From NCBI RefSeq assembly GCF_035920365.1, contig NZ_CP109150.1, positions 7,006,001 to 7,070,000 of the forward strand: DNA of 64,000 nucleotides, given 5' to 3'. The position numbers and the translations under genes are program-made. The notes below the pieces were generated by a model. The model was not told where the DNA came from and searched no databases. It worked only from the letters and a program-made list of their open reading frames with translations. The stretch is from Micromonospora sp. NBC_01740 (GTDB taxonomy: Bacteria > Actinomycetota > Actinomycetes > Mycobacteriales > Micromonosporaceae). This document shows, piece after piece, positions 830 to 7,227 of the stretch. Every line of letters starts with the position of its first letter. The stretch's first letter is position 1.

Positions 830-855
830 CGCCCCGGAAGATCATCACCGGGGCG
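830..855 (+). terminator. Rho-independent-type hairpin after the HAD gene
   Basis: The arms CGCCCCGG (830-837) and CCGGGGCG (848-855) are perfect complements around a 10-base loop. A short T-rich tail (tttct) follows, 22 bases after the HAD stop. The flanking acgag/ctcgt can lengthen the stem past an internal loop. Confidence 0.6.
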
Positions 856-910
856 TTTCTCGTGTCGTCAGCTCACCTCAGGCCCGAGGACGCGGTGCAG
901 CCGCCCTGGG

Positions 911-1123
911 CTAGTCCAGGTCCCCGCGCTTGGCAGCGATCCACGCCTCAACGTCTTCGGCAAGCCAGACGTTGCCCATTTGGAGCGTGGCCACGGGCTC
1001 CGGGAAGTCGCGCCGGTTGGTGATCTGGTAGACGCGCTGGCGCGAGACGCCACCGAGCATGGTCCGGATCTCCCCCGAACCCACCAACCGCAGCTTCCTG
1101 CCCATGACGCTGACGCTAGGCAC
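911..1123 (-). CDS. AlpA/excisionase-type helix-turn-helix protein
   Basis: This 70-residue protein has the compact MerR-like winged-helix layout of AlpA and excisionase proteins: a helix-turn-helix around GGVSRQRVYQIT, then a hydrophobic wing and a C-terminal EDVEAWIAAKR helix. Such proteins regulate or direct excision of integrated elements, or act as small repressors. I take the GTG at 1123; an ATG at 1105 would remove six residues. It is divergent from the small genes at 1195-1825 and sits in an accessory region, which suits a regulator of an integrated element. No integrase is visible in the window, so an excisionase role is unproven. Confidence 0.7.
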   Translation of the reverse strand: MPSVSVMGRKLRLVGSGEIRTMLGGVSRQRVYQITNRRDFPEPVATLQMGNVWLAEDVEAWIAAKRGDLD

Positions 1124-1139
1124 ACGCCGACTAGGCGTG
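1123..1139. promoter_or_regulatory. Candidate operator between divergent genes
   Basis: CACGCC-GACTA-GGCGTG is a perfect 6-bp inverted repeat. It spans the start codon of the AlpA-type gene and lies about 55 bases upstream of the ATG at 1195. CTAG-containing motifs recur around it (ctaggca, actaggcg, cctagat). This is a plausible autoregulatory site, by inference only. Confidence 0.3.
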
Positions 1140-1194
1140 AGTCAAGTTGATAGACACCTAGATAGCGCTGCCACTGGTCGCTTACCCTTTACGC

Positions 1195-1392
1195 ATGACT
1201 AGGTCCAAGTGGTTCCAACGCCCCGACCAACCTGTCGACTACGTAGCCGGCGAGCCAGCCCCATCGAGGTACGGCCGGGAGCCGCAGAGATGGACTGGTC
1301 GCGCCGCCGTCCCCGCACCAGAGCCACCCCTGATGACCAAGGCAGGACTCTGGCGCTCCAGGAACACCGCGACGTGCCTCAACCAGAGGTAG
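1195..1392 (+). CDS. Small hypothetical protein
   Basis: This 65-residue basic, proline-containing ORF begins with ATG and stops three bases before the next ATG, with a GAGG motif just before that start, so it fits as first gene of a compact three-gene run. It has no recognisable domain. A competing frame from 1209 also stays open, so coding status is uncertain; tight packing with the following gene is the main support. Confidence 0.4.
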   Translation: MTRSKWFQRPDQPVDYVAGEPAPSRYGREPQRWTGRAAVPAPEPPLMTKAGLWRSRNTATCLNQR

Positions 1393-1395
1393 GCC

Positions 1396-1578
1396 ATGTC
1401 GATCCCGCAGCAGCGACCAGAGCCCCCGTTCCTCGTCCTGATGGCCGGCAACGTCGTCGACTTCCATAACCGCGCCACCTGCCGGCAGTGCTCCGACGAC
1501 GGATGCCCACGCCTGTCGGCGGCCGGCGAAACCCTACGCGCTTGGCGCGACAGGAAGAGCCGACGTGAAACCCGGTGA
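1396..1578 (+). CDS. Small cysteine-containing hypothetical protein
   Basis: This 60-residue protein begins MSIPQQRPEPPFLVLM and has a CRQCSDDGC cluster followed by a basic C terminus, which hints at metal binding. The ATG is preceded by GAGG. The 3' end overlaps the next gene by 14 bases in another frame, typical of co-translated small genes. I believe similar short proteins occur in Micromonospora accessory regions, but no function is known to me. Confidence 0.55.
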   Translation: MSIPQQRPEPPFLVLMAGNVVDFHNRATCRQCSDDGCPRLSAAGETLRAWRDRKSRRETR

Positions 1579-1825
1579 TGTCCTGCACCTGACCCGTGCG
1601 GCAAGTCCCCAGTTCGTACGACCGATCTTCTTCCGCCTCATTAAAATCCGGGCGGAACTCCACACCTATGACGGATGGATGTGGCTTGACGGCTACCAGC
1701 TCAACCCAATAGGGGAAGCCGTGGCACGTCGAGAGCTATTCGTTCTGAAAAAGGGAGTGCGGCTGGCACATCTACCCGCCCCGCAGCAACGATACCCCAA
1801 AATCGGCATGCGAAGGCGCCAGTAA
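1565..1825 (+). CDS. Small hypothetical protein
   Basis: This 86-residue protein starts MKPGDVLHLTRAASPQF and includes the aromatic, conserved-looking segment TYDGWMWLDGYQLNP, then a basic tail. The balanced composition and TYDGWxWLDGY core suggest a real folded protein. It overlaps the previous gene and ends 25 bases before the stop of the convergent membrane-protein gene. No function can be assigned. Confidence 0.6.
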   Translation: MKPGDVLHLTRAASPQFVRPIFFRLIKIRAELHTYDGWMWLDGYQLNPIGEAVARRELFVLKKGVRLAHLPAPQQRYPKIGMRRRQ

Positions 1826-1850
1826 GCCAAAGCGTGCGGCGCCCTGCACT

Positions 1851-2744
1851 TCACTGTCTTCGACTCAGTCCTCTACGCCTACCGCGAACACCAGCATATG
1901 AACCTTTGCGGTCGGCCCTAACACCGGACCCGGGCGATTCGGTGAGCGAAAGATTTCGCCTCTTCTCCAAAATCTTTAGCTTGAGCAGGACCGCTCGACA
2001 CTCTCGCACAAGGAAACCGCCAAATACCTCTTGCCTCTTCCGCTCATTAAGAAAATGAAGAACGGGAGCCAAGGCGCCGCAAAATAATCCAACCAATACA
2101 AACCCGTGCACAAAAATGGGCACCACCTCACGAGATAAACCGCAGAAAATGACAACCGCTGTTGCAAGAGGTGCAGCGAATGCCACTGCGAGCATCCGTC
2201 GAAGTTCCTTGTCACCCATATAAACAAGGGCCCACTTGCGAAATCTCATCAAGCGGGCTACATCTATCAGCCTTTCACCTACACTAGCGTGCCGACGCAG
2301 TTCTGCCGTCAAGCGCTGAGCGCTCTCAAGCGACACGAAAGGATCCTCAAGGCCAGCGGATATCTTCATAATTCGTCGAGCCAGCGCTCGCGCGCTTGAC
2401 TGCGGGCGATAGCTAGCCGCTAGCGTAAAACCAAAGATCAAGAGCGCAGATACGCCTAAAAAAATCAATTGCAATCCGGATAAGAAGTCATCGCGCGTTC
2501 CGCCTCCCGTAACGAGATTCACTCCAACGCCGGCCAAGATGGCCATGACGGCGGAAAGCATAGGTAAAGTCACTAGGGCACGGAACGCATCCAAAGACAG
2601 AAGCCAAAGGCGGTAGGCCGCCTCAATCTGAGTTCTAAGGATGAAATAAACAACAACCTGGAATGCAAGGTAGATCACGCCTACTGCCAACGACAGAAAT
2701 CCTGCCAGCGCAAGCGTCCGCAGAGGAAAGAGCAACACATCCAC
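1851..2744 (-). CDS. Multi-pass membrane protein next to the STAND ATPase
   Basis: This 297-residue protein has about five hydrophobic segments: one or two within residues 5-36, then near 55-77, 88-110, 185-205 and 210-230. A soluble stretch of about 70 residues (112-183) lies between the two membrane blocks, and the C terminus is strongly basic. The start is GTG at 2744, only 32 bases after the STAND ATPase stop on the same strand, so the two are probably co-transcribed. Base composition is near 50% GC, like the ATPase and unlike the flanking chromosome. I recognise no family. In defence operons such a protein could be a membrane effector or regulator, but nothing in the sequence proves that. 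Confidence 0.7.
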   Translation of the reverse strand: MDVLLFPLRTLALAGFLSLAVGVIYLAFQVVVYFILRTQIEAAYRLWLLSLDAFRALVTLPMLSAVMAILAGVGVNLVTGGGTRDDFLSGLQLIFLGVSALLIFGFTLAASYRPQSSARALARRIMKISAGLEDPFVSLESAQRLTAELRRHASVGERLIDVARLMRFRKWALVYMGDKELRRMLAVAFAAPLATAVVIFCGLSREVVPIFVHGFVLVGLFCGALAPVLHFLNERKRQEVFGGFLVRECRAVLLKLKILEKRRNLSLTESPGSGVRADRKGSYAGVRGRRRGLSRRQ

Positions 2745-2776
2745 GCATTCGAACCTAGCAGCTCACCGCCACACGG

Positions 2777-5700
2777 TCACGACTTCCTTTTTCTAAGGAA
2801 TACTTCAAGCGCATGAAGAACCTCAAAGTCCTTCACCGTTTCGGGATGATCGGGACCGAAAACCGACAGATCTATTTCGTATGCTTTACGGATAGCCGCC
2901 AAAGCTAGCTTCGATTGACGCAAAGCGAAACACGCCTGTCCGTAGTGCAGCAAAGCAGCCGGCAGCGAGAGCTTTGCTCGCGGAAGCTTCTCAAGCGCTT
3001 CAATCGTTGGCCCAAGCAGTTGCACTGTCTCTTTATATCTACGCTGATGGAAGCGTAGGCGCCCTAGTTTGAGATTGTACTCGTATCGCACCTCCGGATT
3101 CTGCCCAAAATCTGCGTCAATCAGCCGTTCCGCCTCCTTGAGTTGGCTGGCTGCCTCCTTCAAATCTTCGATATCGATTGCTCCATCCGCGAGCGAAAGG
3201 TACGAATAAACCAACGGGATGTCGGACCGAGTTCCACTTCGACGCATTTGGACTTCATGATACTTCTTATCAAAGAGATACGACCTTTCCATATCGTTCA
3301 CGTCCTTCGCCAGGAGCGAAGCAAGCCTGTAAGAGTCGGCGCGAAGATTTAGCGAGAGCCCGGTCGGAAGATCTGCGAGGAATCTGTTCAGGCGCTCAGT
3401 GGCATCGACACCTCTGCCAAGCATCCGCAATAGCTCAATCCGGACAAGCTCCACGCGGGCCGCTGGCTCTCCCTCGAAAATCCCTTCGGGTGGCAGGTCG
3501 GAAAGAATGGTCGCTGCAAGATCACGTCGACCTGTTTCCGCCGCGATGACCCCAAGATCACAGACAGCGTTCGCCATCGTCTCGCCATGTCGCAGATCGC
3601 GTCCTGTCTCCAGGTTCGCACTCAGTAAATCTATTGCTTGGTCAATCTCGCCAGACCAGAAGTATGCATGAGAAGCAGACTGCCGCTGCACCACAAGCGC
3701 CATCAGCGGCATGCGACCACGATCGACTCCGGCCGAAACCAGCTCGAGCCCTTGAGCGGCGAACATCACTGCACTATGGGGCCCGGCAGCACCGCCAAGC
3801 AACGGAAGGCGACGCGAGAGGAATGAGCAAGCCTTAACGATGGCTAAGCCATCGCAGCCAGCAGACAGTCCATGAACTGTCAGCGCTGCAATGTGACCAA
3901 CATAGGGGTCGCATTGCGGATCATCTTCGGAAGTAGACGGTAGATTAGTACTGACTAGCCCTATCCCAACCTCAAGCAAGGACACGGGGTCGGAATTCAT
4001 GTTACGCACAATCATGGCGATAATCGGGTGCAACACCAGCCCATTCCCACGACGTTGAACCAACGATGTTTCAACGAGGGCGTCGATCGAGTCTTGCCGC
4101 AGAGAATCTTTGTGAAGGTTCTGAAATATCTCCCAACCCCTCCTAGACACGCCTCGAACGAGATCGGCCCGCAGCTTTCTTAAGATAGTCGATTTTATTT
4201 TATCGAGCCGCCGCGGGAACGATGCCTGGCTGCGTAGATAGGCGATGGGCCAGTCCGACTGAAAGAGTGATAGATCAACGGGATCAGACCCATAGTACGA
4301 GAGGACACCTAGGAGGTCAGCAGCAACTGGCGCTCTCTCGGACAGCGCCGAAACGCTCAGCTGGACGGTTTTTACAACGCTTTCGGGATGCCCCGAAGCG
4401 GCCCCTTTGTTGAGTATTCGCAAGGGCTCGTGCGCGAGTCTCTCAAGGAATATGGAAGGGGACGTGTTCGTGGACCGGCAATAGCTGGTGGCCTGAACAA
4501 CAGCAAGAGGGTGATCGTGGAGTGCCGTAGCGACACTGTCGAGTTCGGCGTCCATCGCGTCAGGTATGCCGGCCTTAAGAAAGCGCAGCGTTTCTCGCCG
4601 ACTCCAGGTAGGTAGCTCTATGTGGCGAAACCCTAAGTCAAGGAAAGGGACGGTGCTGGTGATCAGTACACGGCATGCCGCTCGTCGCGGTATTACGCCT
4701 CGTATGACAGCCGCGTCAGTTACACCATCAACAATCAGAATTGTTCGGTGACCATAGGGAAGGGATGGTGTAACCGATGTACCCAAGCTTGACAGACCTG
4801 CCACTCCAGGGAGATCTTCTTGTGGATTGATTGCCCACAAGTCTCTCAGCAACGAGGCCTTGGTGCTTCCATTGACAATAACAGGACTGAATACGTCGCT
4901 CCTGAGAGCCGCAAATTGGAGGGCAAAGCTGGTTTTACCGCAGCCGGGGACGCCATGGATCACTACCGGAGCTACAGGATCCTCGATTTCCACATCAAGA
5001 AGCTCTGCCACCTCGTCAAGATAGGACTCTCGGCCAACGAATCCCGGGTCGGGTTCCCAAGAGTAGGGGTATGCAGTTGTTGTCGGGTCTAACCGATTTC
5101 TGTCCTTCAGTGGCTCGAGCAACGCCCGCATAAGCCGATCGCGGGAGAGCCAAGAGCTTCCCATACGTATATCAGCCTCGCCTCGGGCTGCGGCATGCAG
5201 GGTGGCCCCGAGCCCAATCTCGTCTACAGGGCTGTCGGTACTGGCTTCCGCTATCAAGGCAACGAGGGCTTCATACGATTCCTGCGCCTCGTTTCCCGTT
5301 GGGTCGCCATGCCGCTGGAGAAGTCGTTGCACCTTGCTAATCCCCACTGCGGAGATTTCTTTCCGCCGAGGGAGTGGCTGTCGAGGTATGGTTAAGGCAC
5401 GAATAAAATCTTCAGCCTCAGCCACGTTCACCTTAAGGTGGGCGGACATCTGCCTGACCACTTCCGATGTTAGCGGCTCTTGCAGCGCACACGTCTTCCA
5501 CAATGCATACGTTCCCCCCGTAAACCCGCCATTACTCCAAAACGCGACGCTACATCTCTTGCTTGAAGCAGTCCAAGCGAGATGCAAGTGCCGCAGAACA
5601 TCTTGCTTTTTTAGGGCAGACCAAGACCAAGAAGGTTCAGCGTACTGGTTAGGTTCACGGTGTTTAATCGATACGAGCTCTGGAGCCCCACGCGACGGGA

Positions 5701-5908
5701 CTAGGATTACATCAGTCGAATATTCTACGATGATTCCAGCCAGGCTATCGCTAGGAAGATGGTTCAGCACAGCCACAGCGACACACTCGTCCTGGTATCG
5801 GAATCTGGCGCGGGTTTCCGGGGCTGTATTCCGAGAATCGAAGCCTAGCGACTTTAAGTTCTCCAGTGAGACTGGTTCTATGCTGTAGTCGTCACCGTTC
5901 GCTGCCAT
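2777..5908 (-). CDS. STAND/NB-ARC-like ATPase with Cap4-like nuclease and TPR domains (NLR-type defence candidate)
   Basis: This 1043-residue protein has three parts. Residues about 30-120 resemble the DUF4297/Cap4 PD-(D/E)xK nuclease: FRYQDE (36-41), Glu62 and Asp66 in VEYSTDVILV, then VSIKHR with Lys82, and a Trp-rich WSWSALKK segment. Residues about 288-480 form the STAND NTPase: FVGRE (290-294), Walker A GVPGCGKT (319-326), Walker B ILIVDG (Asp394), a CRVLITST strand (412-419) and a GLPLA-like HPLAVVQA (466-473). A winged-helix-like region follows, and the C terminus carries TPR repeats, the last ending VFGPDHPETVKDF. Known Avs/bNACHT-type proteins with this order sense phage proteins through the repeats, oligomerise and cut DNA; applying that here is inference. 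The usual E/QxK nuclease motif reads SIK here. Codon use and GC (about 50%) indicate transfer. Confidence 0.85.
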   Translation of the reverse strand: MAANGDDYSIEPVSLENLKSLGFDSRNTAPETRARFRYQDECVAVAVLNHLPSDSLAGIIVEYSTDVILVPSRGAPELVSIKHREPNQYAEPSWSWSALKKQDVLRHLHLAWTASSKRCSVAFWSNGGFTGGTYALWKTCALQEPLTSEVVRQMSAHLKVNVAEAEDFIRALTIPRQPLPRRKEISAVGISKVQRLLQRHGDPTGNEAQESYEALVALIAEASTDSPVDEIGLGATLHAAARGEADIRMGSSWLSRDRLMRALLEPLKDRNRLDPTTTAYPYSWEPDPGFVGRESYLDEVAELLDVEIEDPVAPVVIHGVPGCGKTSFALQFAALRSDVFSPVIVNGSTKASLLRDLWAINPQEDLPGVAGLSSLGTSVTPSLPYGHRTILIVDGVTDAAVIRGVIPRRAACRVLITSTVPFLDLGFRHIELPTWSRRETLRFLKAGIPDAMDAELDSVATALHDHPLAVVQATSYCRSTNTSPSIFLERLAHEPLRILNKGAASGHPESVVKTVQLSVSALSERAPVAADLLGVLSYYGSDPVDLSLFQSDWPIAYLRSQASFPRRLDKIKSTILRKLRADLVRGVSRRGWEIFQNLHKDSLRQDSIDALVETSLVQRRGNGLVLHPIIAMIVRNMNSDPVSLLEVGIGLVSTNLPSTSEDDPQCDPYVGHIAALTVHGLSAGCDGLAIVKACSFLSRRLPLLGGAAGPHSAVMFAAQGLELVSAGVDRGRMPLMALVVQRQSASHAYFWSGEIDQAIDLLSANLETGRDLRHGETMANAVCDLGVIAAETGRRDLAATILSDLPPEGIFEGEPAARVELVRIELLRMLGRGVDATERLNRFLADLPTGLSLNLRADSYRLASLLAKDVNDMERSYLFDKKYHEVQMRRSGTRSDIPLVYSYLSLADGAIDIEDLKEAASQLKEAERLIDADFGQNPEVRYEYNLKLGRLRFHQRRYKETVQLLGPTIEALEKLPRAKLSLPAALLHYGQACFALRQSKLALAAIRKAYEIDLSVFGPDHPETVKDFEVLHALEVFLRKRKS

Positions 5909-5919
5909 CCGGTTACTAT

Positions 5920-5925
5920 ATTATA
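5920..5925 (-). promoter_or_regulatory. -10 box of the STAND ATPase gene, probably leaderless
   Basis: On the minus strand a perfect TATAAT ends 11 bases before the ATG at 5908. A transcript starting 6-8 bases after it would have a leader of only a few bases. No purine-rich ribosome-binding site lies between them. No good -35 box is visible at 17 bases; TTCCAC lies 19 bases upstream. Confidence 0.55.
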
Positions 5926-6169
5926 TTGAGGCCCGAGCTGGAAAGTGGAAGTTCATCTGCCGCAGTCGCGCTCGGACTGTCATACCGCGATGTGGTTTTG
6001 CTACCTGCACCATCGCATACCGGTCGGATCGCGAGTGTGAGTCCTCCACGTCTGTTGCCGATTTCCTCTGTTTTGGATCAAGGCACCGCGCTCCGCGCGG
6101 TGCGGGGCGGCAAGCCCGGCCGGCGGTAAGCCACCGACAGCCGCCGGGACACCGCCCCACGGTCGGATC

Positions 6170-6403
6170 TCAGCTCAGCGCGAGTTCGTCCGGGAAGCGC
6201 TCGTGAAGCGCGGCGACCGCATGCTTCAGGCAGTAGTCGAGGCTATGGCTGTCGACCCTGATCGCCGCGCCGTCAAGCCGCTGACCCGAGATCACCACGG
6301 TCCAGGGCTTACGCTCCCGCTCCCCGTCAATCTTGACCAGTCCTACCAGACCCATCTCCCCCAGGTGCTCCAGCAGCTCCGGCACGCACTCGTCCCACCT
6401 CAT
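6170..6403 (-). CDS. Small hypothetical protein
   Basis: This 77-residue acidic protein reads like a compact alpha/beta fold: an N-terminal helix (ELLEHLGEMG), a strand pair LVKIDGERERKPWTVVISG, then AAIRVDSHSLDYCLKHAVAAL. It has no motif of known function. The stop lies about 260 bases upstream of the STAND gene start on the same strand. The start ATG at 6403 lacks a clear ribosome-binding site; a shorter version is possible. Confidence 0.6.
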   Translation of the reverse strand: MRWDECVPELLEHLGEMGLVGLVKIDGERERKPWTVVISGQRLDGAAIRVDSHSLDYCLKHAVAALHERFPDELALS

Positions 6404-6760
6404 GCACGAATGGGACCACCAAGACCGCTACGGGAGCCAGCGGGGTCGGCCTGGTCGTGCGTCGGGGCTTCCGGCTGCCGCGCCAGTCCAACCCCGGGAC
6501 TGGCTTGCCACCGAGTCACCGGGTCGCGGCGCCAGCTCCACCGCCAGGACGTGCCCGACCCTGCTCCACAGCCGCCGGCCCCGATTCCGGAACCACCGAG
6601 CGCCGGCCCGGAGAGGCCCCGCGACGGCACAGCCAGTCCGACCCGAGACGAGGCCAACTGAGCCGGCGCTCAGGGCGTCTCCAGGGCGTCAGGGCGCCCT
6701 CAGGGCGTCAAACGTCGGCCAAAGTTGACCAAGGACGACCATCGACGCCCGAACATAGAA
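6404..6760. other. Gap without a convincing gene
   Basis: Several overlapping frames are open here on both strands, but all give Arg/Pro/Ser-rich translations typical of GC-rich non-coding DNA. CAGGGCGTC occurs at 6671, 6682 and 6701, with a related AGGGCGCCCT palindrome at 6691. The gap separates the accessory genes from rnpB and may contain the element boundary, but I see no att-like duplicate. Confidence 0.4.
6671..6709. repeat. Short direct repeats CAGGGCGTC
   Basis: CAGGGCGTC occurs three times within 39 bases (6671, 6682, 6701), with a palindromic AGGGCGCCCT between the second and third copies. This could be iterons for a DNA-binding protein or simple slippage; nothing else supports either. 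Confidence 0.4.
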
Positions 6761-6794
6761 CCAGCTCAGAGCCTTGATCGAGGCTCTGAGCTGG
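6761..6794 (-). terminator. Terminator of rnpB
   Basis: CCAGCTCAGAGCCT (6761-6774) and AGGCTCTGAGCTGG (6781-6794) are perfect 14-base complements around a 6-base loop, three bases beyond the 3' end of the RNase P RNA. Read on the minus strand the stem is followed by TTCTAT, weakly U-rich, as expected for an intrinsic terminator. Confidence 0.75.
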
Positions 6795-6797
6795 TGG

Positions 6798-7227
<430 letters not shown>

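Follow-up and report, generated by a model that had tools for sequence, protein, structure and literature searches.

A predicted nuclease-armed, NLR-type protein and an orphan membrane neighbor in a cassette slot beside rnpB of Micromonospora

What do two adjacent low-GC genes beside rnpB of Micromonospora sp. NBC_01740 encode, and do they form one system? They lie in the stretch analyzed here (the window, 64,000 nucleotides of contig NZ_CP109150.1, positions 7,006,001 to 7,070,000). A sequence-only reading had seen in them a candidate antiphage module, in which a Cap4-like nuclease fused to a STAND ATPase (signal transduction ATPase with numerous domains) and tetratricopeptide repeats (TPR) has a membrane protein as partner. 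We consider it likely that the first gene product, P0001, is a single-polypeptide, nuclease-armed defense protein of the NLR type (nucleotide-binding, leucine-rich repeat). The layout is probably that of such a single-gene protein next to an orphan membrane gene, P0002, whose association with it is local, and not an established two-gene type. The genes and domains are:

2777..5908, minus strand: P0001, 1043-aa nuclease–NB-ARC/STAND–TPR protein, intact open reading frame
5054..5908, minus strand: residues 1-285 of P0001, Cap4/LmuA/HamA/Avs3-type PD-(D/E)xK nuclease domain (predicted fold, conserved residues)
4256..5050, minus strand: residues 287-551, NB-ARC/AP-ATPase-like STAND NTPase (motifs, profile match)
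2813..3841, minus strand: residues ~690-1032 (limits approximate), TPR region, presumed sensor (Pfam, profile)
1851..2744, minus strand: P0002, 297-aa orphan membrane protein with ~5 spans, intact open reading frame

Both reading frames are intact and 32 bases apart on the minus strand, at the coordinates first given. The GC content is 0.549 in P0001 and 0.529 in P0002, against 0.740 for positions 8001-64000 of the window; the low GC of the pair stands, at values somewhat higher than the "about 50%" noted before.

The nuclease domain proper covers about residues 30-270 of P0001. The sequence-only reading had placed a Cap4-like domain in residues 1-130; that limit does not hold, and the assignment itself does, with a predicted fold and the invariant E62, D66, and K82. 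A check of the N terminus for a PD-(D/E)xK fold returned a predicted Cap4-type fold, with the alpha-beta-beta-beta-alpha-beta core of that class in the P0001 model, and so did not refute the claim. In alignment A1 (21 rows), E62, D66, and S80-E85 (SIKHRE, with K82) are invariant; in the N-terminal alignment A3 (17 rows), E62, D66, E77, S80, K82, H83, and R84 are. Such invariance in the E62/D66/K82 region is as expected for an active site under selection. PADLOC gives a weak match to LmuA (residues 26-223, E 2.6e-5; remaining matches weaker), and the Pfam family Cap4_nuclease (PF14130) is precomputed on the homologs P0014, P0021, and P0025. The N terminus of P0001 is thus predicted, on its modeled fold, to be a Cap4/LmuA/HamA/Avs3-type PD-(D/E)xK nuclease.

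The core contains all four motifs read earlier (FVGRE, GVPGCGKT, ILIVDG, and HPLAVVQA), with Walker A GVPGCGKT at 319-326 (K325), D394, and PLA at 467-469. P0001 itself has no NB-ARC match in Pfam, and no NACHT match in a Pfam search at E<=10. The profile of its family matches Apaf-1 at profile positions 292-422 (E 4.4e-4); together with the Walker motifs, this match bears out an NB-ARC-like STAND core. The TPR repeats are confirmed by TPR_12, which exceeds its Pfam cut-off (32.9 vs. 30.1 bits), and by the family profile. As read from its sequence, P0001 has the tripartite layout of NLR-like defense proteins (effector, NB-ARC-like STAND, TPR).

The surroundings of the pair were compared with slot loci fetched via TauE (the downstream gene), a HAD gene, and both flanks (20 + 20 + 11 regions). 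Gene calls in these other genomes and loci (G and L numbers below) are our own, not annotated, and their starts may be wrong. All 61 Micromonospora searched have a TauE match, which reaches only 60% identity in two of them. Among 25 loci tested, left-flank homology ceases at 1699-1765 in 11, which are all those with a left match; of the 23 that have a right match, 22 show right-flank homology from 6049-6056 onward and one from 6076. The flank homology breaks off at 1699-1765 and restarts at ~6055, so the two genes occupy a cassette slot next to rnpB, and our gene calls place just P0001 and P0002 between the slot edges of the window. The cassette runs from ~1748 to 6055, which corrects the earlier extent of 1851..5908; its composition and these boundaries support acquisition of the pair as a foreign, low-GC cassette. 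The flanks hold:

850..1747, no strand assigned: left slot flank, with a 64-aa HTH (helix-turn-helix)/AlpA-like gene (sub-threshold in Pfam) and a ~90-aa gene
6056..6160, no strand assigned: right boundary element, hairpin-forming, ~105-150 bases, with a sharp start
6170..6385, minus strand: 71-aa gene adjoining the boundary element, present in many fetched loci
6460..6828, no strand assigned: direct-repeat copy, 372 bases, 85%, overlapping the last 27 bases of rnpB
6802..7219, minus strand: rnpB, RNase P RNA (RF00010, 273 bits)

What other strains carry in the slot was examined with scans of 30 proteins from 21 loci, picked for their slot-edge position and mostly low GC; the scans exclude the smaller further genes of these loci, as well as L068, L096, L102, and L106-L115. 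In other Micromonospora the cargo differs from that of the window, and most of it has a GC of 0.51-0.60. Known or candidate defense genes occur in the cargo at 9 of the 21 scanned loci (with no random-locus control):

L062: NACHT with hydrophobic stretches
L065: DRT UG22 reverse transcriptase and HEPN
L066: Mrr-nSTAND3 (PDC-S73)
L071: OLD-like AAA_21, separated from the element by ~3 kb that include unscanned and unrecognized genes
L086: PDC-M02A/B
L097: GmrSD_N (PDC-M55C)
L098: type IIG restriction-modification
L100: NNH1-NACHT
L104: McrBC with a methylase

The cargo at five further loci is suggestive at most (L080, NACHT sub-threshold; L095, HD-CE and HATPase; L088, PIN; L087, pentapeptide; L103, methyltransferase). 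Family scans at L081, L085, L089-L091, L099, and L101 give nothing clear. The proteins without a clear family have 477 aa (L085), 476 (L089), 806 (L090), 684 and 218 (L091), 670 and 241 (L099), and 174 (L101); the unrecognized cargo of these six loci provides candidate new defense genes.

Eleven loci with P0001 homologs were compared, six long (L038, L039, L048-L051) and five partial or truncated. Their neighbors include a type I restriction-modification system with AIPR/AbiU (L052), GmrSD (L051), an NB-ARC-TPR protein (L050), and STAND proteins with sub-threshold NACHT matches (L049, L053). Both the slot contents in other strains and these neighbors support the defense role proposed in the sequence-only reading.

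Several results weigh against that role or against the nuclease. PF14130 on P0001 itself stays below its cut-off (residues 31-103, 20.6 vs. 26.2 bits, E 5.7e-4), as does AAA_16 (26.5 vs. 32.6 bits). S80 occupies the canonical D/E position of (D/E)xK. The A3 profile retrieves no Cap4/LmuA chain by sequence, its sole match being a ribosomal protein (E 0.86), and the nuclease fold assignment therefore depends on the model. At 12 of the 21 scanned slot loci there is no clear defense family, and the first fetch (via TauE or HAD) gave 18 long stretches, of which 11 lack any gene of GC <=0.60. The neighbors of P0001 homologs come from a survey of 5 of the 11 loci (L049-L053) with no random control, and no experiment on the P0001 family was found within the open-licence papers searched. 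TPR-STAND proteins also act as regulators in actinomycetes, and the best named family for P0001 is FxsT.

These last points raise an FxsT- or AfsR-kind regulator, or a protein of a RiPP system (ribosomally synthesized and post-translationally modified peptides), with no role in defense. FxSxx_TPR (NF040586) is indeed the top NCBIfam match (141.1 bits, residues 288-565), and AfsR gives 28.7 bits, but both scores fall far short of the cut-offs (300 and 1430 bits). FxsT systems have a radical SAM gene alongside, and the nearest PF04055 match is ~53 kb from P0001. On the sub-cut-off scores and this distance we rejected the FxsT/AfsR identity. With a predicted nuclease fold at the N terminus and a slot that often holds defense genes, a non-defense regulator is very improbable.

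The nuclease domain could also be inactive, with P0001 acting otherwise, as a scaffold, in plasmid exclusion, or as a toxin held by P0002. S80 and the weak Cap4 scores would fit such a protein, but the residues invariant in A1 (E62, D66, SIKHRE) and in A3 speak for a conserved site, and we hold an inactive domain to be quite unlikely.

For P0001 as a nuclease-armed NLR-type protein, the following course of action may be proposed. The TPR superhelix at the C terminus would bind a phage-derived protein, or a host protein disturbed by the phage. The NB-ARC-like module would then exchange ADP for ATP and presumably oligomerize. The oligomer would unite the N-terminal Cap4/LmuA-type PD-(D/E)xK domains into an active DNase, and the degradation of phage and host DNA could halt the infection, probably at the cost of the cell.

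Does P0002 belong to this machinery? Hydropathy gives seven overlapping segments, which we take to be about five spans (11-38, 51-81, 85-112, 181-205, 213-234), and family and profile searches (including Pfam, PADLOC, and NCBIfam) return nothing credible; the earlier description as a five-span membrane protein of no recognized family holds on both counts. The AF2 model is poor (pLDDT 59.2, pTM 0.47, 4 sequences). Two protein searches, each limited to scoring the 7998 candidates with the most words in common, find three relatives besides P0002 itself, all in Micromonospora. M. saelicesensis (P0030) and M. sp. NPDC049089 (P0031) carry P0002 homologs. Matches occur in 5 of 354 genomes of the family at E<=1e-3, strong only in its own genome and in G268; the weak ones in G045, G277, and G077 (27-29%, E 7e-6 to 4e-4) were set aside as membrane-helix similarity. 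For P0002, dN is 0.17 and dS 0.72 (nonsynonymous and synonymous substitutions; NG86, 258 codons), or 0.20 and 0.49 with YN00. With dN/dS below 1, P0002 looks like a real gene, and it appears to be under purifying selection.

A two-component system would require P0002 as a membrane anchor, an injection sensor, a second effector that damages the membrane, or an inhibitor of the NLR at rest. The two genes share one strand, a similar low GC, and a common cassette, and from gap and strand only P0002 is probably co-transcribed with P0001. The apparent purifying selection on P0002 would suit a functional partner. In G268 (L047), the homology spans window positions 1685-2629 (76.5%), so that P0002 occupies the same slot edge there. 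Short unrelated membrane-like genes also lie upstream, in the same orientation, of two Streptomyces homologs of P0001 (L038, 158 aa, gap 165; L039, 134 aa, gap 312). On the other hand, no P0002 relative was found at any of the 11 P0001-homolog loci (best E 0.007), 5 of these homologs being partial and L054 ending at a contig edge downstream. M. palythoicola, whose NLR homolog (P0004) is 85% identical to P0001, has no separate P0002 entry in the searches, in which a copy of at least 90% would hide in cluster P0028. G268 matches P0001 in STAND stretches only, at 29-32%. Past P0002, that locus has a 266-aa gene, by eye an insertion sequence (IS) transposase, and then the contig ends; an NLR may therefore once have been there, and the truncated locus is not decisive on pairing. 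Also in L047, the P0002 homolog lies near a gene for an RHS-repeat protein with a pretoxin HINT domain. The 11 homolog loci and the Micromonospora-only distribution of the clear relatives found speak against a conserved membrane partner, and the idea that the membrane protein defines the system as its second component, as implied by the sequence-only reading, is not upheld. We find the two-component system doubtful; most likely P0002 is not a core part, but a passenger or an accessory that is optional.

How does P0001 compare with known systems? Avs3 is far longer (chain 8dgc, 2028 residues vs. 1043), and the NTPase of P0001 matches Apaf-1. No Avs match is found in PADLOC at E<=1, nor among the PDB sequence matches listed (for the profile, the best 60 of 82); PADLOC presumably contains Avs models. 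Cap4, LmuA, and HamA (of CBASS, Lamassu, and Hachiman) share the predicted effector fold of P0001. Control over them lies with a SAVED domain, an SMC complex, or a helicase, and not with a fused STAND module as in P0001. As to the Lamassu partner LmuB, P0002 and the scanned flanking genes match no SMC family.

The comparisons that follow draw on excerpts of the papers cited. STAND proteins share an effector-NTPase-sensor layout, with nuclease effectors in Avs1-4 (PMC12931631). As predicted for P0001, bNACHT25 and bNACHT32 (clade 6) are STAND proteins with a PD-(D/E)XK DNase at the N terminus, and D48A abolishes their defense (PMC12169576); they have NACHT and NCH1, whereas P0001 has an NB-ARC-like core and TPR. 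Conflict networks, actinobacterial ones included, contain both AP-ATPase-TPR proteins and REase effectors (PMC8195603; PMC7159879). The actinobacterial proteins have the AP-ATPase-TPR fusion of P0001, with REase-fold effectors in related networks, but in the excerpt their genes lie near caspases, TIR, and kinases, and no P0001-type Cap4 fusion is among them (PMC8195603). Within the open-licence papers, neither the P0001 architecture nor a defense slot at rnpB was found. In the literature examined, then, the kind is already known, and the domain combination of P0001 and its slot are not met with.

The boundary element starts sharply on the cargo side, mostly with TGCCGA (22 aligned copies, including that of the window). 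It marks the variable-cargo edge in L062, L065, L066, L068, L071, L080, L085-L091, L095-L102, and L104-L115, and is lacking in L081 and L103. It contains a perfect 9-bp hairpin stem. The second copy in G239 preserves the stem by a paired change, whereas the stem is shorter in L080 and has a mismatch in L068, so that selection on the hairpin is only suggested. Compared with shuffled sequences, a 161-base region has only a slight folding advantage (z about -1.6), and an Rfam search gives no credible match. A strict pattern finds the element once or twice per genome (10 genomes scanned), with looser copies elsewhere. The second copy in the genome of strain NBC_01740, at 1,586,083 (L105, 1,577,500-1,588,500), adjoins a gene matching the OLD family and GajA (E 3e-9, 1.3e-8) and one matching UvrD-like helicases. 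The element may be a terminator, an attachment site, or the fossil of a mobile element. A more far-reaching idea has the rnpB side (and second sites, such as that by the GajA/OLD-like gene) as a dedicated defense slot, with the element as the site-specific recombination or attachment point at which strains swap intact units, and with the NLR nuclease and its membrane accessory as a two-part system; we view it as tentative and rather unlikely. The other copy of the 372-base repeat lies left of the window (-2937..-2569, L046), and the two bracket a 9-kb region; no rnpB match is found near the left copy. The repeat may be the trace of an earlier integration at rnpB.

Judged from domain content, the effector domain of the P0001 family is mobile between architectures. 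P0025, of 1660 aa, joins a P0001-type N-terminal domain to a precomputed NACHT domain. At L055 and L057-L060, such a domain is joined to a kinase-like protein, and genes for a Mokosh-type helicase and an MkoB-like protein come next. The trio was scanned at L059 (Pkinase 28.7 bits vs. a cut-off of 31.7; MkoA E 4.9e-115; MkoB E 3.2e-18) and the helicase alone at L055; at L057, L058, and L060 the gene order is similar by eye. The arrangement is possibly a nuclease-bearing variant of Mokosh. In plasmids, P0001 has partial matches in 18 records (the best of 10 listed at 28.6%, residues 1-446) and P0002 none; the best listed match, from a Rhodococcus plasmid, adjoins an IS3 gene and is uninformative. 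In viral contigs, the stretches matching peptide patterns contain no P0001 or P0002 relative, the phage collection lying outside the search.

If our reading of P0001 is true, it would add an NB-ARC-like, TPR-bearing, nuclease-armed member to the bacterial relatives of NLRs. To our knowledge, few such NLR-like proteins of Actinomycetota have been examined experimentally. The slot on the rnpB side offers a way to harvest defense candidates, starting with the cargo of the 12 loci without a clear defense family, and the conserved boundary element makes the exchange of defense genes as units a testable question.

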